Part shown: piece by piece, positions 30,329 to 39,236 of the stretch | Layout of the letters: the number at the start of each line of letters is the position of its first letter | How positions within the stretch are numbered: position 1 is the stretch's first letter | Source: Alcaligenes aquatilis | Lineage (GTDB): Bacteria > Pseudomonadota > Gammaproteobacteria > Burkholderiales > Burkholderiaceae_B | Direction of reading: 5' to 3' | DNA length: 64,000 bases | NCBI RefSeq assembly: GCF_003076515.1 | Contig: NZ_CP022390.1 | Coordinates: 3,604,572-3,668,571, forward strand | Position numbers and translations under genes: made by a program | Notes under the pieces: generated by a model | Database searches by the model: none | What the model was told of the DNA's origin: nothing | What the model saw: the letters and a program-made list of their open reading frames with translations, nothing else

Positions 30329-31078
30329 TTGGACAAGACTTTTGTTAAGGGCCTGGTGCTCCTGGAAGCCCTGGCCAAGCACGAACGAGGCTCGGGTGTG
30401 ACCGAGCTGGCCAATCAACTGATGCTCAATAAAAGCAATGTGCATCGACTGTTGCAGGCGCTGGTTCACCAGGGCTTTGCGCGCAAGAACGAAGACACCG
30501 GGCGCTACGAGCTGACCATGAAACTGTGGGAGTTGGGCTCGGGCTTGGCCAATCGGCTGGATGTACGCGTGGAGGCTTTGCCCTTCATGAAAGAGCTGGC
30601 CGAGCAAACCCAGGAAACAGTGCATTTGTCGCTGCTTGATGGGGTCGAGGTGCTGTATATCGAAAAGATCGACAGCCCGCAGCCTGTGCGTGCCTACACC
30701 ACTGTGGGCGGACGCTCGCCTGCGCAATGTGTGGCAACGGGCAAAGCGATGTTGGCCTGGGCCAGTGAAGATACCTTGAATCTGATCAAGAACCGTCTCA
30801 AACCTTATACGCCGCGTAGCCTGGTCAAGTTTGGTGATTTGCGCCGTGAACTGGAACAAGTGCGCGAACAGGGGTATGCGATTAACCGGGGCGAGTGGCG
30901 TGAGCAGGTCGTGGGTGCGGCTGCACCTATTTACGACAGTCGGGCAATGGTGGTGGCGGCGTTGGGCATTTCCGGGCCTGCCGAGCGCCTGGAAGAAGCG
31001 CGACTGATTCAGGCCGGTAAAACCTTGATGACGGCAGCGGCGCAGATCTCGCGCCGCTTGGGTTATAGCGGTCGCTAA
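30329..31078 (+). CDS. IclR-family transcriptional regulator
   Basis: Regulator of 249 residues with an N-terminal winged helix (residues 1-65; VTELANQLMLNKSNVHRLLQAL) and a C-terminal effector domain (VGGRSPAQCVATGKAML then AVAAPI-like AAAPIYDSR). The start is a TTG because the only upstream in-frame codons before a stop are ATT and GAT. IclR proteins usually respond to organic acids or aromatic intermediates. It is the only regulator next to the acyl-CoA gene block at 31414-39236 and the likeliest ligand of the paired 26-bp elements there. Confidence 0.87.
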   Translation: MDKTFVKGLVLLEALAKHERGSGVTELANQLMLNKSNVHRLLQALVHQGFARKNEDTGRYELTMKLWELGSGLANRLDVRVEALPFMKELAEQTQETVHLSLLDGVEVLYIEKIDSPQPVRAYTTVGGRSPAQCVATGKAMLAWASEDTLNLIKNRLKPYTPRSLVKFGDLRRELEQVREQGYAINRGEWREQVVGAAAPIYDSRAMVVAALGISGPAERLEEARLIQAGKTLMTAAAQISRRLGYSGR

Positions 31079-31160
31079 ACCGTTATAGAAGACAGGTTCC
31101 GGGCTGGATGAAACAGCCCGGATTGGAACTGCTGTTAAAACTTGGATGGCTTCGCCCATG

Positions 31161-31392
31161 TTTTGTCGCCGGGCCGCCCCAAGACAAAAACTCCCCCTTG
31201 GGGGGCAGCAAGCCGAAGGCGTAGCGTGGGGGCTTTTTTTGTCGCCGGGCCGCCCCAAGACAAGAACTCCCCCTCGGGGGGCAGCAAGCCGAAGGTGCAG
31301 CGTGGAGGCTTTTTTTGTCGCCGGGCCGCCCCAAGGCAAAAACTCCCCCTCGGGGGGCAGCAAGCCGAAGGCGCAGCGTGGGGGCTTTTTTT
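31161..31392 (+). repeat. Three tandem 76-bp repeats with terminator features
   Basis: Units at 31161-31236, 31237-31312 and 31313-31388 (plus four extra Ts), differing at only a few positions. Each holds CCCCC...GGGGG complements, AGCCGAAGGC and ends in GGGGGC followed by seven Ts, so each can form a rho-independent terminator on the plus strand. They lie between the convergent IclR and crotonase genes. Similar GC-rich sequences are common between genes in Burkholderiales. Protein-like readings through them are artefacts. Confidence 0.9.
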
Positions 31393-31413
31393 GGGGCCGT
31401 TCAATATCAGCGT

Positions 31414-32166
31414 TCAAGACTTTGCGGCCTGCCTGAAGGCCGCGATTCTTTCCTTGATGCCGGGTGCGGAAGCCGAGCGCACCAAGGCTGCCATATCCCG
31501 ATCAGCCTGTTGTGGGCAACCCGTTAACTGATGCAGATAGGTGCGACTGCTCGCGTCCAGCAAGCCTGCTGTTTGTTGAGCTTGCTCGATGACCGCAGGC
31601 CACGCGTCGGACTCTTGCGTGTCGTCAATAAATCCTAGTTGTTTTGCTGTGGCAGCATCAAAAACCTGGCTTCCTGCCAAAAGTTGATGAGCCTGCTGAC
31701 CGCCGATCAGGGCCGCCAGTCTGCCAGTTCCCAAGGCTAGCCCAAACTGCAGTCCAGGCATGCGAAAGCGCGCGTCCGCGCTGGCCACGCGCTGACGGCA
31801 GACAGCAATCAAATCCACGCCTGCGCCGAAGTTTTGCCCATGCGCCAGGGCCAGGGTGGCGCACGGTGTGTGGGCCAGCCTCTGCAAGAGGGTTTCGATG
31901 CGGATAAAGCGCAGCACCAGATCCCCCTCGCTTTGCTGCTCGTAGTCGCTGAAGTCAAAACCGGCACTGAAGTTACGGCCTTCACCGCGCAAGATCAGCA
32001 GATCGGCCTGGGCCTGTTCTGCGGCCTGCACGGCCGCGATCAGGGCTTCGACTAGCTCGGCCGACAAGGCATTGCGTTTGTCGGGCCGGTTTAGCGTCAG
32101 GGTCCAGACTTTGCTCGCGCAGTCCACGTTCAGGCTGGGGCTGCGGCTGCAATACGGCGCTGTCAT
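31414..32166 (-). CDS. Crotonase (enoyl-CoA hydratase/isomerase) family protein, atypical
   Basis: Protein of 250 residues with the crotonase fold; the oxyanion-hole segments GRNFSAGFDFSDY (about 65) and GQNFGAGVDL (about 110) are present. Compared with classical enoyl-CoA hydratase, the first catalytic Glu is Asp (GAGVDL) and the second is Gly (FRMPGLQFG), so ordinary hydratase chemistry is doubtful; isomerase, hydrolase or C-S/C-C bond chemistry is possible. Its start overlaps the CoA-transferase stop (ATGA). Third gene of the leftward acyl-CoA operon. Confidence 0.83.
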   Translation of the reverse strand: MTAPYCSRSPSLNVDCASKVWTLTLNRPDKRNALSAELVEALIAAVQAAEQAQADLLILRGEGRNFSAGFDFSDYEQQSEGDLVLRFIRIETLLQRLAHTPCATLALAHGQNFGAGVDLIAVCRQRVASADARFRMPGLQFGLALGTGRLAALIGGQQAHQLLAGSQVFDAATAKQLGFIDDTQESDAWPAVIEQAQQTAGLLDASSRTYLHQLTGCPQQADRDMAALVRSASAPGIKERIAAFRQAAKS

Positions 32167-33314
32167 GGGGTGACTCCGTGCAAGATGCTGTCGTTATGTT
32201 CGCCCAGCGCGGGGGGGGGCAGACGGACGGGCAAGCCCACCCCATTAATACGCAGGGGCGAGATAAAGCTGCGGGTGTCCGTATCCGTACCCGGCAGGCG
32301 AATGTTTTGCACCCATTCCATATGTTCGACCTGCGGGTCGCGCAAGACGTCGGAATAGCGGTTGATGGGGCTGCAGGGTACGCCTTGGGCACGGAATTGG
32401 GCCAGCCAATGTTCGCAGTCGTGCTGCACAAAAATGGCTTCCAGCAATTCACGCAAGGCGTCTTGATGTTTGGCGCGCAGGGTGGTGCTGGTAAAGCGTT
32501 CATCCTCGGTCAGATCCGGGCGTTCAACAACCTGACAGACAGAGCGCCACAGCGCGTCGTTGCCTGCGGCCATGGCGAAGTAGCCGCCTTTGCACTGGAA
32601 GGCCTGGTAGGGCGCATTGCGTGGATGGGCGGAGCCCAGCTTGTCCGGGTCGCGGCCACTGCCGAAATACTCCGAGGTTTGCAATGCAGCGATGGCTAGT
32701 GTGGTCCCCAGCATGGGTACGTCTATATGCGCGCCCTGGCCGGTGGCACGAGCTTGTGGCAAGGCGGCGCTGATGGCAAAAGCCGCATATAAACCGGCAG
32801 CAAAATCGGCCAATGGGACCCCGCATTTAACCGGGGCACCGCCTGCCTCGCCAGTGACGCTCATCACCCCGCTCATGGCCTGAATCGTCAGATCGAAACC
32901 GCCTTCTTGCGAGCGTGGGCCGCTTTGTCCATAGGCGGAAATGGAGCAGTACAGCAGTCTGGGGTTAATAGCTTTCAGACTCTCGTAGTCCAGTCCTAAA
33001 CGTTGCATGACGCCGGGCCGGTTGTTCTCCAGCAAGACATCGGCATTCAGCACCAGTTGGCGTGCCTTGGCCACATCGTCAGGGTTTTTCAGATCCAGCG
33101 TCACCGAGCGCTTGTTGCGGTTTAGCGAAGCAAAGTTCTCGCTGTAGCCCTGGTTGATGGGCGGCCAGCTTCGTAAGGTGTCTCCCCCTTTGGGGTGTTC
33201 GATTTTGATGACGTCAGCCCCCATATCGGCCAACAACATACCGCAGTACGGGCCAGCGGCCACATTGCAAAATTCCAGTATCCGAACCCCGTTCAGGGGC
33301 AATGTCGTATCCAT
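32163..33314 (-). CDS. Class III (CaiB/BaiF) CoA-transferase
   Basis: Protein of 383 residues, the normal family length, that moves CoA between organic acids through mixed anhydride and thioester intermediates. Signature segments: GPYCGMLLADMGADVIKIE near residue 20-40, NRNKRSVTLDL near 65, NNRPGVMQRLGLDY near 95, and the catalytic Asp in PLADFAAGLYAAFAI near 170. The family includes succinyl-CoA:3-sulfinopropionate CoA-transferase of Alcaligenaceae, a tempting function given the thiol dioxygenase at 38676, but other acids are equally possible. Middle gene of the operon. Confidence 0.88.
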   Translation of the reverse strand: MDTTLPLNGVRILEFCNVAAGPYCGMLLADMGADVIKIEHPKGGDTLRSWPPINQGYSENFASLNRNKRSVTLDLKNPDDVAKARQLVLNADVLLENNRPGVMQRLGLDYESLKAINPRLLYCSISAYGQSGPRSQEGGFDLTIQAMSGVMSVTGEAGGAPVKCGVPLADFAAGLYAAFAISAALPQARATGQGAHIDVPMLGTTLAIAALQTSEYFGSGRDPDKLGSAHPRNAPYQAFQCKGGYFAMAAGNDALWRSVCQVVERPDLTEDERFTSTTLRAKHQDALRELLEAIFVQHDCEHWLAQFRAQGVPCSPINRYSDVLRDPQVEHMEWVQNIRLPGTDTDTRSFISPLRINGVGLPVRLPPPALGEHNDSILHGVTP

Positions 33315-33361
33315 GAATCAGCTCCAGAGCGTGATATAGGTAGATGGGGGCCGACAGGGCC

Positions 33362-34348
33362 TTAGGCGTTCACATCAACCACGATGCGGCCGCGTACTTT
33401 GCCCTCCAGTAGCTGGCCGGCCTGATCAATGGCTTGGGAAAGCGTGATGGTGCTGGCACCGATGCGCTCCAGGGCCTCGATGGACAAATGCTTGGCCAGC
33501 AAGTCCCAGGCCGCCAGACGCTCGGGTTTGGGGCAATGGACGCTGTCCACACCGATCAATTGAACGCCGCGCAAAATGAAGGGGGCCACAGAAGCGGGGA
33601 AGTCCATGCCCTGGGCCAGACCGCAGGCGGCCACTGCGCCCAGATATTGTGTGCCTGCGCAGACATTGGCCAGGGTGTGGCTACCCACGCTGTCAATGGC
33701 TCCAGCCCAGCGTTCCTTGCCCAGCGGTTTACCAGGTTCGCTTAAGGTATTGCGGTCCACAATCTCGTTGGCGCCCAGGGCCTTCAGATAGCTTTCTTCC
33801 TGAGGACGGCCCGTGCTGGCCATCACGGTGTAGCCCAAGGCATGCAGCAGGGCTACGCTGACACTGCCTACGCCACCGGCGGCACCCGTCACCAGAATGG
33901 GGCCTTTGTCGGGTGTCACGCCTTGGCGTTGCAAGGCACGCACGCACAGGGCAGCGGTGTAGCCGGCGGTACCAATCATCATGGCTTGCTGGGTGGAGAA
34001 GGCTTCGGGCAGGGGAATCAGCCAATCGCCTTTCACGCGGGCCAACTGTGCCAGACCGCCCCAATGCACTTCGCCCACGCCCCAGCCGTTCAGCACCACT
34101 TTTTGGCCGGCGTTGAAATTCGGATCGCTGCTGTCGGTGACCGTACCGGCAAAGTCGATGCCGGGCACCATGGGGAACTGGCGCACTACGGGGGATTTAC
34201 CCGTCATGGCCAGGCCGTCTTTGAAGTTCAAGGTGGAGTAGTCGATGCGAACCGTGACCGAGCCGTCGGGTAGAGCAGATTCGTCCAGGGATTGCAGGCT
34301 GGCCTTGTATTGGCCGTCGGTTTTGTCGATGACGATGGCAGAGAACAT
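33362..34348 (-). CDS. acuI: Acryloyl-CoA reductase AcuI/YhdH-type MDR oxidoreductase
   Basis: Zinc-less medium-chain reductase of 328 residues. Members of the AcuI/YhdH branch reduce acryloyl-CoA to propionyl-CoA with NADPH. Features: DYSTLNFKDGLAMTG near residue 40, PMVPGIDFAGTV, GWGVGEVHWGGLAQ and the nucleotide loop ILVTGAAGGVGSVSVALL near residue 155, all characteristic of this branch. First gene of a leftward operon with the CoA-transferase (47 bases on) and a crotonase. A 26-bp element at 34380-34405 lies 32 bases upstream of its start. Confidence 0.88.
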   Translation of the reverse strand: MFSAIVIDKTDGQYKASLQSLDESALPDGSVTVRIDYSTLNFKDGLAMTGKSPVVRQFPMVPGIDFAGTVTDSSDPNFNAGQKVVLNGWGVGEVHWGGLAQLARVKGDWLIPLPEAFSTQQAMMIGTAGYTAALCVRALQRQGVTPDKGPILVTGAAGGVGSVSVALLHALGYTVMASTGRPQEESYLKALGANEIVDRNTLSEPGKPLGKERWAGAIDSVGSHTLANVCAGTQYLGAVAACGLAQGMDFPASVAPFILRGVQLIGVDSVHCPKPERLAAWDLLAKHLSIEALERIGASTITLSQAIDQAGQLLEGKVRGRIVVDVNA

Positions 34349-34379
34349 GAATGATTCCTTCGATCAGTTAAAGGGTTTT

Positions 34380-34405
34380 GTTCTGATATTTGGAACGGCG
34401 TTCTT
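34380..34405 (-). promoter_or_regulatory. 26-bp regulatory element, copy A (before acuI)
   Basis: Read on the minus strand: three half-sites GAAC-GCC-GTTC-8-GAAC, preceded by AA. It matches copy B at 34625-34650 at 19 of 26 positions, including every half-site base. The three-half-site GAAC/GTTC arrangement suits an IclR-type dimer or tetramer. Located 32 bases from the acuI start codon. Confidence 0.65.
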
Positions 34406-34624
34406 AAAAATGACGTAAAAAATCGGTGTTTTCATTGTATCTAGAAGTGCGTTGCGGTCAAGCCCAACGCGACATGATGATTGAACTGGGGAAATCCCGG
34501 AGGGGATTAATAGTTGACACTTGAAATCAAATCTCCCACTATTTGAACCGTTGTCCTCAGTTGCTTGTGTTGTTGCTGTCTGTTGTACTCGCGCCGTTTT
34601 CACGGCATTTTTAAGATCAAAAAC

Positions 34625-34650
34625 AAGAACAGCGTTCTATATAGTGGAAC
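34625..34650 (+). promoter_or_regulatory. 26-bp regulatory element, copy B (before the Bug receptor)
   Basis: Half-sites GAAC-AGC-GTTC-8-GAAC on the plus strand, the mirror arrangement of copy A. It lies 38 bases before the receptor start codon, almost the same distance as copy A from acuI. The two copies therefore mark both divergent promoters in the 340-bp gap 34349-34688 as one regulon. A TTGACA at 34514-34519 lies between them without a convincing -10. Confidence 0.65.
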
Positions 34651-34688
34651 AATAAGAGAGAAAAACTCTCACACAGGAGGCAAGGATC

Positions 34689-35687
34689 ATGTCTAATTCT
34701 TTTTTTTCGCGTACAGGGTTTTTACGCACAATGCTGGTTTCGGGACTGGTGGCAGTGAGCAGCTTTTCTGCCCCGGCGGCCATCGCGGCCGATACCTATC
34801 CCAGCCGTGAAGTCACTTTTGTGGTTCCCTATCCCCCCGGCGGCAATAGCGACAATCTGGCGCGCGTGTTTGCCGACCGTTTGCGCGTCAAGCTAGGCGT
34901 TCCCATCGTCATTGAGAATCGACCCGGTGGCACGACGTCGATTGGGACTTCCATCGTAGGTCGTGCCAAACCTGATGGCTATACCTTGTTGCTGGCCACC
35001 AGCACGGCTTTTACGGTGCTGCCCTATATACGCGATGTGCCGTATGACCCGGTCCAGGGCTTTGAGTTTATTGGCAGCCTGGCGGGTTATCTGCCCATCA
35101 TGACGGTACGTAATGACTTGCCTGTCTCCAATCTGAAAGAGTTTGTTGAGTTGGCGCGCAAAGAGCCTGGAACCTTGACCTTTGGCTCTGCAGGCATTGC
35201 GTCGGGAGGTCATTTGGCCGGCGAGATCTTGAAAAATTCGCAAAAACTGGATCTATTGCACGTCCCCTTCAAGGGGTCAGCGGACACCATGACGGCCTTG
35301 CTGGGCAAGCATGTTGATTTTTTTATTGATGGTGTCGGGCTGGAACTGGTGAAAAGTGGTAAAGCCAAGGCCTTGGTCACGTATGCCAGTGTGCGCCACC
35401 CCGAATTGCCAGATGTGCCCACTCCCGGTGAAGAGGGTTTTGAGCTCGCTTTGCCTTTTGAAGGTTTCTGGGGGCTGGCTGCGCCCGCCGGCACGCCCGA
35501 GCCGGTCATACAGAAATTGGCCAAAGCCACGGAAGAAATCCTGGCCGAGCCGCAAACCCAGGAGCGTTTTCATCGCATCAGTGTCAGCGCCAGCTGGAAA
35601 GATGGGCAAGCCTATGCCAAAGATCTGGAAAAAAGCCGCGCCTATTACCGCGAGCTCCTTAAGACCATCAAGATGAGCGATGAGTAA
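34689..35687 (+). CDS. Bug/TctC-family periplasmic solute-binding protein
   Basis: Receptor of 332 residues with a signal peptide ending near IAA-DTY. The Bug signature is clear: YPSREVTFVVPYPPGGNSD at the mature start, GVPIVIENRPGGTTSIG, KPDGYTLLLAT and VPFKGSADTMTALLGKHVD. Such proteins bind carboxylic acids and are greatly expanded in Alcaligenaceae; no TctAB membrane partners are encoded here, so it may work with distant ones or in signalling. GGAGG lies upstream of the ATG. First gene of a rightward operon with an acyl-CoA synthetase, crotonase and thiol dioxygenase. Confidence 0.9.
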   Translation: MSNSFFSRTGFLRTMLVSGLVAVSSFSAPAAIAADTYPSREVTFVVPYPPGGNSDNLARVFADRLRVKLGVPIVIENRPGGTTSIGTSIVGRAKPDGYTLLLATSTAFTVLPYIRDVPYDPVQGFEFIGSLAGYLPIMTVRNDLPVSNLKEFVELARKEPGTLTFGSAGIASGGHLAGEILKNSQKLDLLHVPFKGSADTMTALLGKHVDFFIDGVGLELVKSGKAKALVTYASVRHPELPDVPTPGEEGFELALPFEGFWGLAAPAGTPEPVIQKLAKATEEILAEPQTQERFHRISVSASWKDGQAYAKDLEKSRAYYRELLKTIKMSDE

Positions 35688-35721
35688 ACGCTCACAGAAC
35701 CCCCAACAGGAGAAACATGGG

Positions 35722-37824
35722 ATGGAGACCGTCACTTGCGTCAGCGCACTGGACGCGTTGCTGGACCCGGCATCCATAGCCTTGGTCGGCGCCTCGGAGG
35801 ATCAGTCCAAGTTTGGTGGGCGACTGTTTCGCATGTTGCTCAAGCACGGTTATGGCGGCAAGGTCCTACCCATCAATCCCAGCCGCAGCAGTCTGTTTGG
35901 TTTGTCTGCTGTGCCCGGTCTGGCTGCGCTGGACAGTGCTCCGGATCTGGCCGTGTTTACGGTGGGAGCCGATACCGTTCTGGAGCAGGCACAGATTGCG
36001 GCCCAAATGGGGGTGCGCGGTCTGCTGGTGATCTCTGCAGGCTTTGCCGATGCAGGCGAGCGAGGGCTGGAGCGTGAGCACGCTTTGCTGCGTATCTGTC
36101 GTGACTCGGGCATGCGCCTGATCGGCCCTAATTGTTTGGGCATGATCAGCCCCAGCCGCAATCTGGTGCTGTGTTCTTCGCCGGTGCTGGACAGAGACAG
36201 CCTGCCGGAGCGGCCTATTGGTTTTGTCAGCCAAAGCGGTGCCTTGATGACCACGTATTTTGATCGGGCATGGGCGATGGGCGGCGGCTTTACCTATGGC
36301 TTCTCGGTGGGCAATCAGGCGGACCTGGACCTGTGCGACTTTGTGGATTTCCTGATTGATGATCCCCAGACGCAGGTGATCTGTACCTATATAGAGGGCA
36401 TTAAAGATACCCAGGCTTTGCGTCGTACGGCTCGCCGGGCTCAAGCCGCAGGCAAGCCCTGGCTGGCCGTCAAGGCCGGGCGTTCCAGTGCGGGCAAGGC
36501 GGCCGCCTTTTCGCATACCGCCAGCGTAGCGGGGGACCATGATGTGTTTGCCAGTGTCTGCCGCGATGAAGGCATCAGCCTGATGGACGATATGGGAGCC
36601 ATGCTTTTGTTGGCAAACAGCATGGTGCGCTTTACCAGCAACAAGATTTCCAAGGTCGCGATTGTGACACCGTCAGGTGGTGGAGGGGCCTTGGCTGCCG
36701 ATGCCTTGGCAGACCACGGCGTGGAGCTGTCCAACTTTTCTGCTTCTACCAAGCATGCTTTGGCCGCCCACTACCCGGCCGGGCAGGCGGATAACCCGGT
36801 GGATTTGGGAGCGCGTCTGACTCAGGACTCCACCGAGGTAGCCCGCGCCACCTTGGATGCCTTGATGCAGGATCAGCAAAGCGATGCGGTATTGATTACG
36901 GCCTCCATGTGTCCGCAGGAATGGATGGCGGCTCTGATTGAAAAAATCATCCATCCCGAACCGCACTGGGCCAAGCCCGTCATGGTGGCCTTTGATGCCG
37001 GTGCAACGTCCGAGCCTTTGCGGCAGAAGCTGGCCCAGCACGGCCATGCGTATGCCAGCTCCAGTCTGGAGGCGGCCTTGGCCTTGTCGGCCTGGAAACG
37101 TCATGGGCAGTTTGTGCCGCGTCAGGCGGCTTTGCGCCCCAGCGCTTGCCAGGCTCCTACCGTGATGCCGCGTGGTGTCCTTAATGAAGACCAGTCCAAG
37201 CGTTTGCTGGCGCATTACGGTTTGCCGGTGAATCTGGGTCAGGTATGCGAGGACGTGGAGCAGGCCGTGGCGCAAGCGGAGCAGATGGGCTATCCGGTGG
37301 TGATGAAGATCGTCTCTCCCGACATCGTCCATAAAACCGAAGCGGGCGGGGTGGCGCTGGATGTGGCCGACGAGGCCAGCTTGCGACGTGATTTTGCCCG
37401 GCTCTACGCGAATGCCAAAGCCTATAAAGCGGATGCCCGTCTGGAAGGTGTTTTGGTGCAGGCCATGGCCAAGGGCGATGTGGAACTGCTGATCGGCGCG
37501 CGCCAGGATGCGCAGTTTGGCCCGGTGGTGGTGTTTGGTGCGGGCGGCATTCTGGTGGAAATGTTGTCAGACCGGGTCATTGCGGCCGCACCGCTAACCT
37601 TGGCTGATGCGGACCGGCTCTTGTCCACCTTGATGATCGACAAATTGTTGAAGGGGTACCGGGGGCGCATGCTGGATCGGGCCGGTGTGCTCGATGCGAT
37701 TGTGCGTGTCAGCTTTCTGGCCCACGACTTGCGCGATACCGAGTTTGAATTGGACATCAACCCATTGATTGTGGCGGCCACCCGTTGTCATGCTGTCGAT
37801 GCCCGCCTGTCCATAGGCACATAA
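35722..37824 (+). CDS. ADP-forming acyl-CoA synthetase (fused alpha-beta type)
   Basis: Protein of 700 residues that activates an organic acid with ATP and CoA, giving acyl-CoA, ADP and phosphate. Order: CoA-binding Rossmann domain (residues 5-130; ALVGASEDQSKFGG), succinyl-CoA-synthetase-like domains with the phosphohistidine loop AFSHTASVAGD near 275, and a C-terminal ATP-grasp domain (residues 485-700; PVVMKIVSPDIVHKTEAGGV). AGGAG nine bases before the ATG at 35722 supports this start; the ATG at 35680 overlaps the receptor stop and has no site. It presumably activates the acid delivered by the receptor. Confidence 0.9.
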   Translation: METVTCVSALDALLDPASIALVGASEDQSKFGGRLFRMLLKHGYGGKVLPINPSRSSLFGLSAVPGLAALDSAPDLAVFTVGADTVLEQAQIAAQMGVRGLLVISAGFADAGERGLEREHALLRICRDSGMRLIGPNCLGMISPSRNLVLCSSPVLDRDSLPERPIGFVSQSGALMTTYFDRAWAMGGGFTYGFSVGNQADLDLCDFVDFLIDDPQTQVICTYIEGIKDTQALRRTARRAQAAGKPWLAVKAGRSSAGKAAAFSHTASVAGDHDVFASVCRDEGISLMDDMGAMLLLANSMVRFTSNKISKVAIVTPSGGGGALAADALADHGVELSNFSASTKHALAAHYPAGQADNPVDLGARLTQDSTEVARATLDALMQDQQSDAVLITASMCPQEWMAALIEKIIHPEPHWAKPVMVAFDAGATSEPLRQKLAQHGHAYASSSLEAALALSAWKRHGQFVPRQAALRPSACQAPTVMPRGVLNEDQSKRLLAHYGLPVNLGQVCEDVEQAVAQAEQMGYPVVMKIVSPDIVHKTEAGGVALDVADEASLRRDFARLYANAKAYKADARLEGVLVQAMAKGDVELLIGARQDAQFGPVVVFGAGGILVEMLSDRVIAAAPLTLADADRLLSTLMIDKLLKGYRGRMLDRAGVLDAIVRVSFLAHDLRDTEFELDINPLIVAATRCHAVDARLSIGT

Positions 37825-37867
37825 AACCAATACTTATTCTTTGAAAAATACCCAGGAGGAGTCAACC

Positions 37868-38620
37868 ATGTCGGATTATCAGTGCATTCTTGTAGAAAAC
37901 CACGATGACGGTGTTTCCATCTTTACGATCAATCGACCTGATCGCCGCAATGCCTTGAGTGCCACCGTGGTCAAGGAATTACAGCAGGCTTTTCTGGCCT
38001 TTGATGAAGATCCCACACGCCGCGTAGCCGTGCTGACCGGGGCAGGGAACGATGCCTTTTCAGCCGGTGCTGACGTCAATGAGTGGCCCGAATTGTGGCG
38101 TGCTATTCCCACGGTAGGCTTTGAAACCGACAAGCCCATTATTGCGGCCGTCAGTGGCTGGTGCGTGGGTGGGGCCTTGGTGATGGCCATGATGACGGAC
38201 TTGCTGGTAGCTTCCGAGAGTGCCAAGTTTTCTTACCCTGAAGCCAAGCTGGGCTTTACGGGGGGCATCATTTCCGGGCTGGCCTCGCGCATTCCCCATC
38301 ACGCTGCCATGGAAGTGATCTTGTTGTGTCGCACTCTGGAAGCCCGTCGTGCCTACGATCTGGGCTTTGCCAATGAGGTGGTGCCGGTCGGGGAGCACGT
38401 CCAGGCGGCGGTGCGCATGGCGCAGGATCTGGCCAAGATGTCGCCGCGCGTGCTGCAAACCTTGAAGCGCTTTATCAATAATGAGGTGCTCACGCGTGGT
38501 CCGTCTGAGCAAATGGCGCGTACCATGCGACACCTGAAAGCAATCGAGGATAGTTATGATGCCAAGGAAGGGATGAACGCGTTCAAAGAAAAACGCGCCC
38601 CGGTGTATCTGAACAAATAA
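37868..38620 (+). CDS. Crotonase-family protein, second copy, atypical active site
   Basis: Crotonase-fold protein of 250 residues. Oxyanion-hole segments NDAFSAGADVNEW and SGWCVGGALVMAM are present. The first classical catalytic Glu is Val here (GGALVM), while the second is kept (FSYPEAKLG), a pattern seen in isomerases, hydrolases and lyases of the superfamily rather than in textbook hydratases. AGGAGG precedes the ATG at 37868, a very strong ribosome site. It lies between the acyl-CoA synthetase and the thiol dioxygenase, so it should act on the CoA thioester made by the former. Confidence 0.85.
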   Translation: MSDYQCILVENHDDGVSIFTINRPDRRNALSATVVKELQQAFLAFDEDPTRRVAVLTGAGNDAFSAGADVNEWPELWRAIPTVGFETDKPIIAAVSGWCVGGALVMAMMTDLLVASESAKFSYPEAKLGFTGGIISGLASRIPHHAAMEVILLCRTLEARRAYDLGFANEVVPVGEHVQAAVRMAQDLAKMSPRVLQTLKRFINNEVLTRGPSEQMARTMRHLKAIEDSYDAKEGMNAFKEKRAPVYLNK

Positions 38621-38675
38621 GAATTGATTCACGCATTGGGCCGCAAGGCCCAGTCAACGATGGAGACATCCCCGT

Positions 38676-39236
38676 ATGCACCCCCGTTTTGAGCGCTTTA
38701 TCCAAGGGATGAATGAACTGACGGCCCGCCCTGCGGTGGGCGAGGCGGATATCTTGGGTGATGGCCGCGTTTTGCTGGGCGAGCTGGTGGCCCAGGACGA
38801 CTGGCTGGCCCCGGAGTACACCCAGCCCCATCCGCAGTTCTATCAGCAGTACTTGCTGTATTGCTGTCCGCAGGAACGCTTTTCCGTGGTCAGCTTTGTG
38901 TGGGGCCCCGGCCAGAAAACGCCCATTCACGACCATACGGTGTGGGGCTTGATTGGCATGTTGCGTGGCGCCGAACGTTCCCGGCCTTTTGACCGTGATC
39001 CTGATACCGGCCATATGACAGAAGAAGAGACACAGATTCTGGAGCCGGGCGTGGTGGAAGTGGTGTCACCCACGGTGGGCGATATACACGAGGTCTCCAA
39101 TGTGTATGACGACCAGGTGTCCATCAGCATTCACGTTTATGGCGCCGATATCGGCAAGGTACGCCGCCATGTGTTTGACCCGCAGACCGGGCAGGCCAAG
39201 GAGTTTATCTCCGGCTATGTCAACCGGCCTGCATAA
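38676..39236 (+). CDS. Cupin thiol dioxygenase, 3-mercaptopropionate/cysteine dioxygenase type
   Basis: Single-domain Fe(II) cupin of 186 residues that adds O2 to a thiol, giving a sulfinic acid. Iron ligands His85 and His87 in TPIHDHTVWGLIGMLRGAE and His138 in VGDIHEVSN form the three-His site of this family. The segment FYQQYLLYC has Gln where animal cysteine dioxygenase has a substrate-binding Arg, the pattern associated with 3-mercaptopropionate preference; the crosslinking Cys of the animal enzyme is absent. Last gene of the receptor-synthetase-crotonase operon. Substrate choice between cysteine and mercaptopropionate is inferred. Confidence 0.85.
   Translation: MHPRFERFIQGMNELTARPAVGEADILGDGRVLLGELVAQDDWLAPEYTQPHPQFYQQYLLYCCPQERFSVVSFVWGPGQKTPIHDHTVWGLIGMLRGAERSRPFDRDPDTGHMTEEETQILEPGVVEVVSPTVGDIHEVSNVYDDQVSISIHVYGADIGKVRRHVFDPQTGQAKEFISGYVNRPA

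Follow-up and report, generated by a model that had tools for sequence, protein, structure and literature searches.

How does a bacterium that appears equipped to oxidize 3-mercaptopropionate (3MP) dispose of the sulfur when its genome seems to lack Acd, the desulfinase of the known pathway? The question is raised by an eight-gene block at positions 30329-39236 of a 64,000-nucleotide stretch of Alcaligenes aquatilis DNA (hereafter the window), which lies at bases 3604572-3668571 in a genome assembled as a single contig of 3.84 Mb. An earlier note on this DNA had proposed that the block degrades a C3 thio- or sulfinyl-acid, with sulfite or sulfide leaving by elimination to acryloyl-CoA. Our analysis indicates that the block is real, conserved and apparently co-regulated, and that it probably represents a variant of 3MP/3-sulfinopropionate catabolism without Acd, whose substrate and two crotonase reactions we propose from sequence comparison. 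A conserved CoA-transferase/crotonase pair beside the dioxygenase is a directly testable candidate for the missing desulfination step, possibly by unusual chemistry.

An eight-gene block without the known desulfinase

Profile searches confirmed eight reading frames, all in the gene families named by the earlier note. They form two divergent operons on either side of a 340-base gap (34349-34688), with acuI-CoAT-ECHL to the left, bug-ACS-ECHR-mdo to the right and iclR at the far left. Reading frames overlap in both arms (ACS with the end of bug, and ECHL with CoAT by 4 bases), which gives each the look of an operon. Synteny of the full set, at 88-99% identity, extends to three further Alcaligenes (Alcaligenes sp. 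SORT26, A. faecalis AU14 and A. pakistanensis, the nearest named records), which argues that the neighborhood is not due to chance.

The last gene of the right arm, mdo (38676-39236, plus strand), encodes a cupin of the cysteine-dioxygenase type. Its product (MDO) scores 27 bits against CDO_I (cut-off 23), 229 bits against PDB 4qma and 198 bits against the Azotobacter 3MP dioxygenase 6xb9, versus 46 bits against the mercaptosuccinate dioxygenase 8vni. The three-His iron site predicted earlier is present as H85, H87 and H138, and these residues, together with Q58, S151, H153, Y155 and R164, are kept in at least 97% of 149 aligned rows. Through the 6xb9 alignment, in which the numbering is shifted by 5 up to a one-residue gap and by 4 beyond it, they map to reference residues H90, H92, H142, Y159, R168 and Gln63 in the available text of PMC8050391 and to S155/H157 in a published abstract. 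MDO thus has the three-His site, the SHY triad and the Arg168 and Gln63 equivalents of a Gln-type 3MP dioxygenase. Because the conserved residues match those of PMC8050391, 3MP is likely to be a substrate of MDO.

In the known pathway, Acd turns 3-sulfinopropionyl-CoA into propionyl-CoA and sulfite (PMC5373536, PMC6370202, in the portions available), and this flavoprotein is the sulfur-removing enzyme that the accessible text of these papers and of PMC8102459 describes for that intermediate. Our Acd query was the acyl-CoA dehydrogenase encoded beside mdo and a CoA-transferase gene in another locus (L127), its identity as Acd being taken from gene order. The absence of a desulfinase gene, previously reported for the block, holds genome-wide: no orthologue was found in the complete A. 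aquatilis genome at E <= 1e-100 (six of ten first-look candidates scored), and none of eight acyl-CoA-dehydrogenase N-domain matches there reached the query at this threshold. Matches in other genomes were 61-81% identical to the query. Within the family, genes for a CoA-transferase, an acyl-CoA dehydrogenase and MDO stand side by side in L125, L127, L130 and L133 and lie further apart in L134.

The left arm carries the candidate replacement. CoAT (32163-33314, minus strand; CoA_transf_3, 427 bits) is a class III CoA-transferase and the presumed loader of 3-sulfinopropionate, and ECHL (31414-32166, minus strand; ECH_1, 86 bits) is a crotonase-superfamily enzyme that may stand in for Acd. Among 268 genomes of the family and 349 of the order, MDO was found in 163 and 62, ECHL in 129 and 44, and Acd in 22 and 2, respectively; 141 of the 163 family genomes with MDO lack Acd. 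MDO and ECHL occur together in 122 family and 40 order genomes (overlap of lists counted manually; order Fisher 6e-32). Counted by genus, 21 in the order have both, 11 MDO only, 2 ECHL only and 114 neither (p 2e-15), with corresponding family values of 23, 4, 3 and 13 (p 4e-5). The two matches are at most 300 bp apart in half of the 40 shared order genomes, as read manually from coordinates. Identity thresholds for calling relatives were chosen by us, and the genome searches scored part of the candidates in many genomes. Neither the genomes nor the loci are phylogenetically independent of one another, and a larger genome may simply contain more genes of every kind.

The gene set was also searched for across relatives, as the earlier note had suggested. 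The named set comprised the best 80 of 145 dioxygenase loci, and the family set 80 regions from about 150 places, with the largest genus represented by 6 of its 43 genomes. After exclusion of L106, a repeat of an older locus, and of one of 159 loci (L027, where the dioxygenase shares an open frame with another match, though the gene set looks complete), removal of identical dioxygenase DNA reduced 158 loci to 147. CoAT and ECHL lie within 8 kb of MDO in 79 of these 147 distinct loci and Acd in 5, never both. Neighbors are undercounted, because the available sequence stops short of 8 kb on one side of the dioxygenase in 85 of these loci and short of 5 kb in 20. In 48 of the 79 CoAT-ECHL loci, no more than 400 bp separate ECHL from MDO, and a compact CoAT-MDO-ECHL operon recurs in Variovorax, Cupriavidus, Verticiella, Rhodoferax and many metagenome bins. 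An ECHL tree (99 rows, one outgroup) requires 9 changes for tight MDO linkage, at least 6 of them forced by supported branches, with details unsure and several branches long; linkage has therefore been repeatedly gained or lost. Being commoner than Acd in both locus and genome counts, a crotonase-based ending is a serious candidate. Literature searches on this question, in open-licence PMC, turned up no description of a CoAT-MDO-crotonase module.

Shared palindromes and unlinked copies

The likely regulator of both arms is an IclR-family protein encoded at 30329-31078 (plus strand, TTG start; IclR_C, 161 bits). The divergent gap contains two exact copies of the operator-like palindrome RGAACNNNGTTCY, one per arm and the sole exact ones in 64 kb. 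The copy upstream of acuI (GGAACGGCGTTCT, 34392-34404) is conserved in L004-L006; the copy upstream of bug (AGAACAGCGTTCT, 34626-34638) is followed by 8 nt and a GAAC half-site, the whole spanning 34626-34650. A narrower form of the pattern gave 3 matches at up to one mismatch versus 0.39 expected. The triple-half-site layout is repeated in three other genera (L126, L129, L227), before bug or between mdo and CoAT. Exact palindromes also precede bug in L137 and L152, and one-mismatch copies occur in L008, L225 and L226.

Palindrome occurrence follows the relatedness of the regulator. Where IclR is at least 60% identical to that of the window (14 loci), the palindrome is exact in 8 and has one mismatch in 3; outside Alcaligenes, exact copies precede the same families of genes in 5 of 11 such loci. 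The 45 upstream stretches of the 14 loci yielded 18 exact hits versus 0.11 expected. This figure scores any site lying between divergent genes two times; by manual count there are 11 distinct sites in 8 loci, 6 of them in the three Alcaligenes loci. The 67 loci with IclR 40-55% identical have no exact palindrome and 7 at up to one mismatch versus 4.9 expected. We infer that IclR is the protein that binds the palindromes and that the block is probably one regulon of two divergent, IclR-controlled operons. The shared palindromes are our best evidence that both arms serve one purpose.

Several observations weigh against a single purpose centered on sulfur. The palindrome is absent from 3 of the 14 loci with a closely related IclR (L132, L141, L178). 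ECHL occurs in 7 of 105 family and 4 of 287 order genomes that lack MDO, and in 20 ECHL loci away from MDO, hand-picked for inspection, CoAT adjoins ECHL in 18, the other two having ECHL without CoAT. Ten of the 20 also contain a small gene pair related to glutaconate CoA-transferase (109 bits to 5mzw), most with an AMP ligase, which suggests that CoAT-ECHL may serve a related non-sulfur acid; we take the pair to be of the kind named AibAB and IpdAB. Conversely, 41 of the 163 MDO-containing family genomes lack ECHL, and in 34 of these, 25 from a single genus, Acd is likewise missing at our thresholds, so other routes exist. An initial reading in which CoAT-ECHL was tied to MDO alone was corrected by the unlinked copies.

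The unlinked copies, and the separation of the arms by 11 kb in one genome (G127; L124, L227), favor an alternative in which the left arm degrades an unrelated short acid, MDO just detoxifies thiols and the regulator is shared by history. This account sits poorly with the strong co-occurrence and repeated adjacency of CoAT-ECHL with MDO and with the single operator-like site found between mdo and CoAT-ECHL in L129, and we judge it unlikely.

CoAT-ECHL followed by the glutaconate-CoA-transferase-like pair and an AMP ligase was seen in L055 (14911-16750), L222, L223, L230, L232, L234 and L235, two of which (L222, L223) place this related catabolic operon in genomes devoid of the dioxygenase. A promoter-like TTGACC-16-TACAAT for the left arm (34434-34461, minus strand) agrees with consensus at 10 of 12 positions and is weak, with 4 such sites versus 3.2 in shuffles. 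Between iclR and ECHL, the window carries a tandem repeat (31161-31393; 3.1 copies of a GC-rich 76-base unit with a hairpin and T-run), whose 20-base core has exact matches, among 247 loci, only in L209, another copy of the region (three times), and in L214, from a congener (once). In another congener (G062; L123, 8473-10159), a dioxygenase 75% identical to MDO is still near a YbaK-like gene. The other seven block genes were unmatched in the 16.5 kb covered there, and no ECHL was found in that genome at E <= 1e-28, consistent with loss of the block from G062 or with its insertion elsewhere.

Two activating enzymes and two crotonases

AcuI, encoded first in the left arm (33362-34348, minus strand), is an NADPH-dependent acryloyl-CoA reductase and the only protein of the genome above the curated cut-off of NF051456 acrylyl_AcuI (549 bits, cut-off 440). 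The best NCBIfam models for CoAT, succinate-glutarate and succinyl-CoA:mesaconate transferases, both fall under their cut-offs. CoAT is 59-97% identical to the transferases counted beside ECHL near MDO versus 36-38% to those beside Acd, values that do not support orthology with Act; our cut at 52% identity excludes L041, at 36%. For ECHL, the nearest solved structure, 3isa, is annotated merely 'putative'. The ECHL residues R86, D118, G138, R149 and R240 are invariant across the 85 aligned rows that share 30% identity or more with the window protein, and also across 15 rows that include copies unlinked to MDO. Enoyl-CoA hydratases use a catalytic Glu pair, E144 and E164 in the rat enzyme. From sequence motifs, we take the corresponding positions to be D118/G138 in ECHL and V114/E134 in ECHR, so that neither crotonase has both catalytic Glu residues of an enoyl-CoA hydratase proper. 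With the pair replaced by Asp and Gly, ECHL is not an ordinary hydratase.

The right arm starts with a Bug/TctC periplasmic receptor (34689-35687, plus strand; TctC, 192 bits). It is followed by ACS (35680-37824, plus strand), an ADP-forming acyl-CoA synthetase with ATP-grasp_5, Succ_CoA_lig and CoA_binding_2 domains and with His279 in 16 of 16 aligned sequences, and by the crotonase ECHR (37868-38620, plus strand; ECH_1, 171 bits), for which the ATG at 37868, preceded by AGGAGG at 37854-37859, is a likelier start than the TTG at 37841. In ECHR, E134 is present in 28 of 29 aligned rows; the E144-equivalent position is Val in 21 and Val or Thr in 26. The nearest solved structures to ACS are 4-hydroxybutyrate-CoA ligase 8wzu (312 bits) and DddX 7cm9 (253 bits). 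The latter score, a kept phosphohistidine and the nearby AcuI raise the prospect that ACS is a DddX-like, ATP-dependent dimethylsulfoniopropionate (DMSP) lyase whose acryloyl-CoA is handled by AcuI. We consider this highly improbable and rejected it on residues and score: H292 of DddX is kept, W391 is replaced by Gly (G377), F435 falls opposite a gap, a Glu aligned with E432 in a gapped stretch is kept in 6 of 16 rows, and the 4-hydroxybutyrate-CoA ligase scores higher.

The scheme outlined before this work took 3MP itself as the substrate. MDO would yield 3-sulfinopropionate, CoAT or ACS would load it onto CoA, and a crotonase would eliminate the sulfur to give acryloyl-CoA for reduction by AcuI. 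Part of this C3 thio-acid route stands, namely MDO, a CoA-loading enzyme, a crotonase, AcuI, the lack of Acd and relatives beyond Alcaligenes; its chemistry as written does not. On general chemical grounds, when a beta-sulfinate is expelled by alpha-proton abstraction, the bonding electrons stay on sulfur, giving sulfoxylate, S(II), rather than the sulfite that had been proposed. Release of sulfite would require the electrons to remain with the carbon, as in the Acd reaction, or else a substrate that is a sulfonate. Elimination to acryloyl-CoA retains some support in the position of acuI at the head of the CoAT-ECHL arm, in an L227 locus where AcuI is beside CoAT-ECHL along with two ECHR copies, and in the frequency of the compact CoAT-MDO-ECHL operon. 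Yet AcuI near MDO tracks ECHR, being found in 9 of 25 loci with ECHR versus 0 of 122 without it, and in none of the 64 CoAT-ECHL-MDO loci that lack ECHR. The nine loci represent about four arrangements, and three of them are Alcaligenes. A single acid for the whole set also leaves two activating enzymes and two crotonases unexplained, with ACS and ECHR redundant. For these reasons we regard the earlier scheme as unlikely. Our own initial impression had been that, away from MDO, AcuI is never found with CoAT-ECHL; L227 weakens it.

Action of ECHL on 3MP-CoA, with sulfide as leaving group and MDO as a parallel branch, would be chemically reasonable and would account for AcuI in the arm of ECHL. 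It would leave the frequent joining of MDO and CoAT-ECHL without a reason, and seems quite improbable.

A thioether input of the thiodipropionate type gives each activating enzyme and each crotonase a job. Confinement of AcuI near MDO to ECHR loci points to ECHR and the synthetase as an acryloyl-CoA source, and in L164, L176, L177, L189 and L193 an unrelated AMP-forming ligase replaces ACS beside ECHR, MDO and AcuI. The synthetase-crotonase pair fits a role in thioether cleavage, making acryloyl-CoA and freeing a thiol for MDO. We therefore favor, tentatively and as plausible rather than probable, an eight-gene regulon for catabolism of an S-substituted 3MP, thiodipropionate being the simplest fit, with ECHL in place of Acd. 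Bug would bind the acid for uptake and ACS would form its CoA thioester. ECHR would abstract the alpha proton and expel the thiol, converting thiodipropionyl-CoA into acryloyl-CoA and 3MP. AcuI would reduce acryloyl-CoA to propionyl-CoA, MDO would oxidize 3MP to 3-sulfinopropionate, and CoAT would load the latter onto CoA. ECHL, instead of the flavoprotein, would then remove the sulfur, yielding either propionyl-CoA and sulfite or acryloyl-CoA and sulfoxylate that is subsequently oxidized by oxygen. Propionyl-CoA would enter the methylcitrate cycle. By profile search, the genome has a citrate-synthase-II-type gene over its cut-off, which we take to belong to the methylcitrate synthase group. 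It also has a single Mo-co_dimer domain, of the kind present in sulfite oxidases, and, away from the block, two membrane components of the TctA type. Two points temper the proposal: the thioether substrate is a guess, and the way in which a crotonase would expel a beta-sulfinate is unclear.

A broader and more doubtful proposal is that ECHL founds a flavin-free class of 3-sulfinopropionyl-CoA desulfinases or sulfinate lyases in the crotonase superfamily. This might be the usual pathway end in 3MP-oxidizing Burkholderiales, served by interchangeable 3MP-releasing front ends: ACS with ECHR, an AMP ligase with ECHR, or a PurB/XcbD-like C-S lyase. ECHR is in turn a candidate for cleaving thioethers, a reaction of interest for thio-acids derived from polymer additives and natural sulfur compounds and for polythioester production.

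Two further gene families recur near these loci. A fumarase/PurB-family lyase lies near MDO in 19 of the 79 CoAT-ECHL loci and 5 of the 68 others (L132, 8635-9984; L046, 11810-13171; 22 more). A representative scores 474 bits to XcbD, which acts on a C-S bond in coenzyme M biosynthesis (cut-off 600), and 361 bits to purB (cut-off 326). Because it falls under the XcbD cut-off and over that of purB, we offer only as a suggestion that it releases 3MP from a succinyl thioether as a C-S lyase. A PIG3-type quinone oxidoreductase family gene is near ECHL in 13 of the 79 CoAT-ECHL-MDO loci, all betaproteobacterial bins (L009-L025, e.g., L013, 10413-11459), and is possibly an AcuI stand-in. Two metagenome bins titled Bordetella parapertussis (L014, L017) share gene families with other Burkholderiales bins, and their species label looks doubtful.

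Comparison with described pathways

In the accessible portions of PMC5373536, PMC6370202 and PMC8102459, one of the closest systems is the 3-sulfinopropionate pathway (Mdo, Act or SucCD, Acd) described for Advenella mimigardefordensis DPN7 and Variovorax paradoxus TBEA6. The block shares with it a 3MP dioxygenase, CoA activation, TctC-type receptors and propionyl-CoA as presumed end product. Unlike that pathway, it lacks Acd and has instead two crotonases, ACS and AcuI, along with a CoAT that is only distantly related to the transferases beside Acd. The regulators also differ, being an IclR protein in the block and LysR and XRE proteins among those named for Advenella in the text available.

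The TBEA6 thiodipropionate cluster (Ech-20, Ech-30 and the crotonase family protein VPARA_05510) resembles the block in that enoyl-CoA-hydratase/crotonase genes, needed or helpful for thioether use, are clustered with mdo (PMC6370202, in the parts available, as for what follows on this strain). Ech-20 offers a precedent for our scheme, being needed for growth on thiodipropionate and stabilized by the thiodipropionate CoA ester. Unlike the block, this cluster also holds act and acdA. Several features of it argue against a direct parallel with our scheme. Ech-20 was inactive in vitro in a first attempt, and the authors assume a prior acyl-CoA dehydrogenase step. Moreover, they liken Ech-20 and Ech-30 to a MaoC-like enzyme, so these may not be crotonases; our comparison with ECHR and ECHL is by description only.

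With DddX (eLife 64045, PMC8163506, available portions), the block has in common an ADP-forming synthetase with a phosphohistidine and a route through acryloyl-CoA. It differs in that ACS lacks aligned W391 and F435 and that a separate crotonase is present. AcuI itself is a described acryloyl-CoA reductase family to which the block protein belongs by the curated cut-off, in a different genetic setting.

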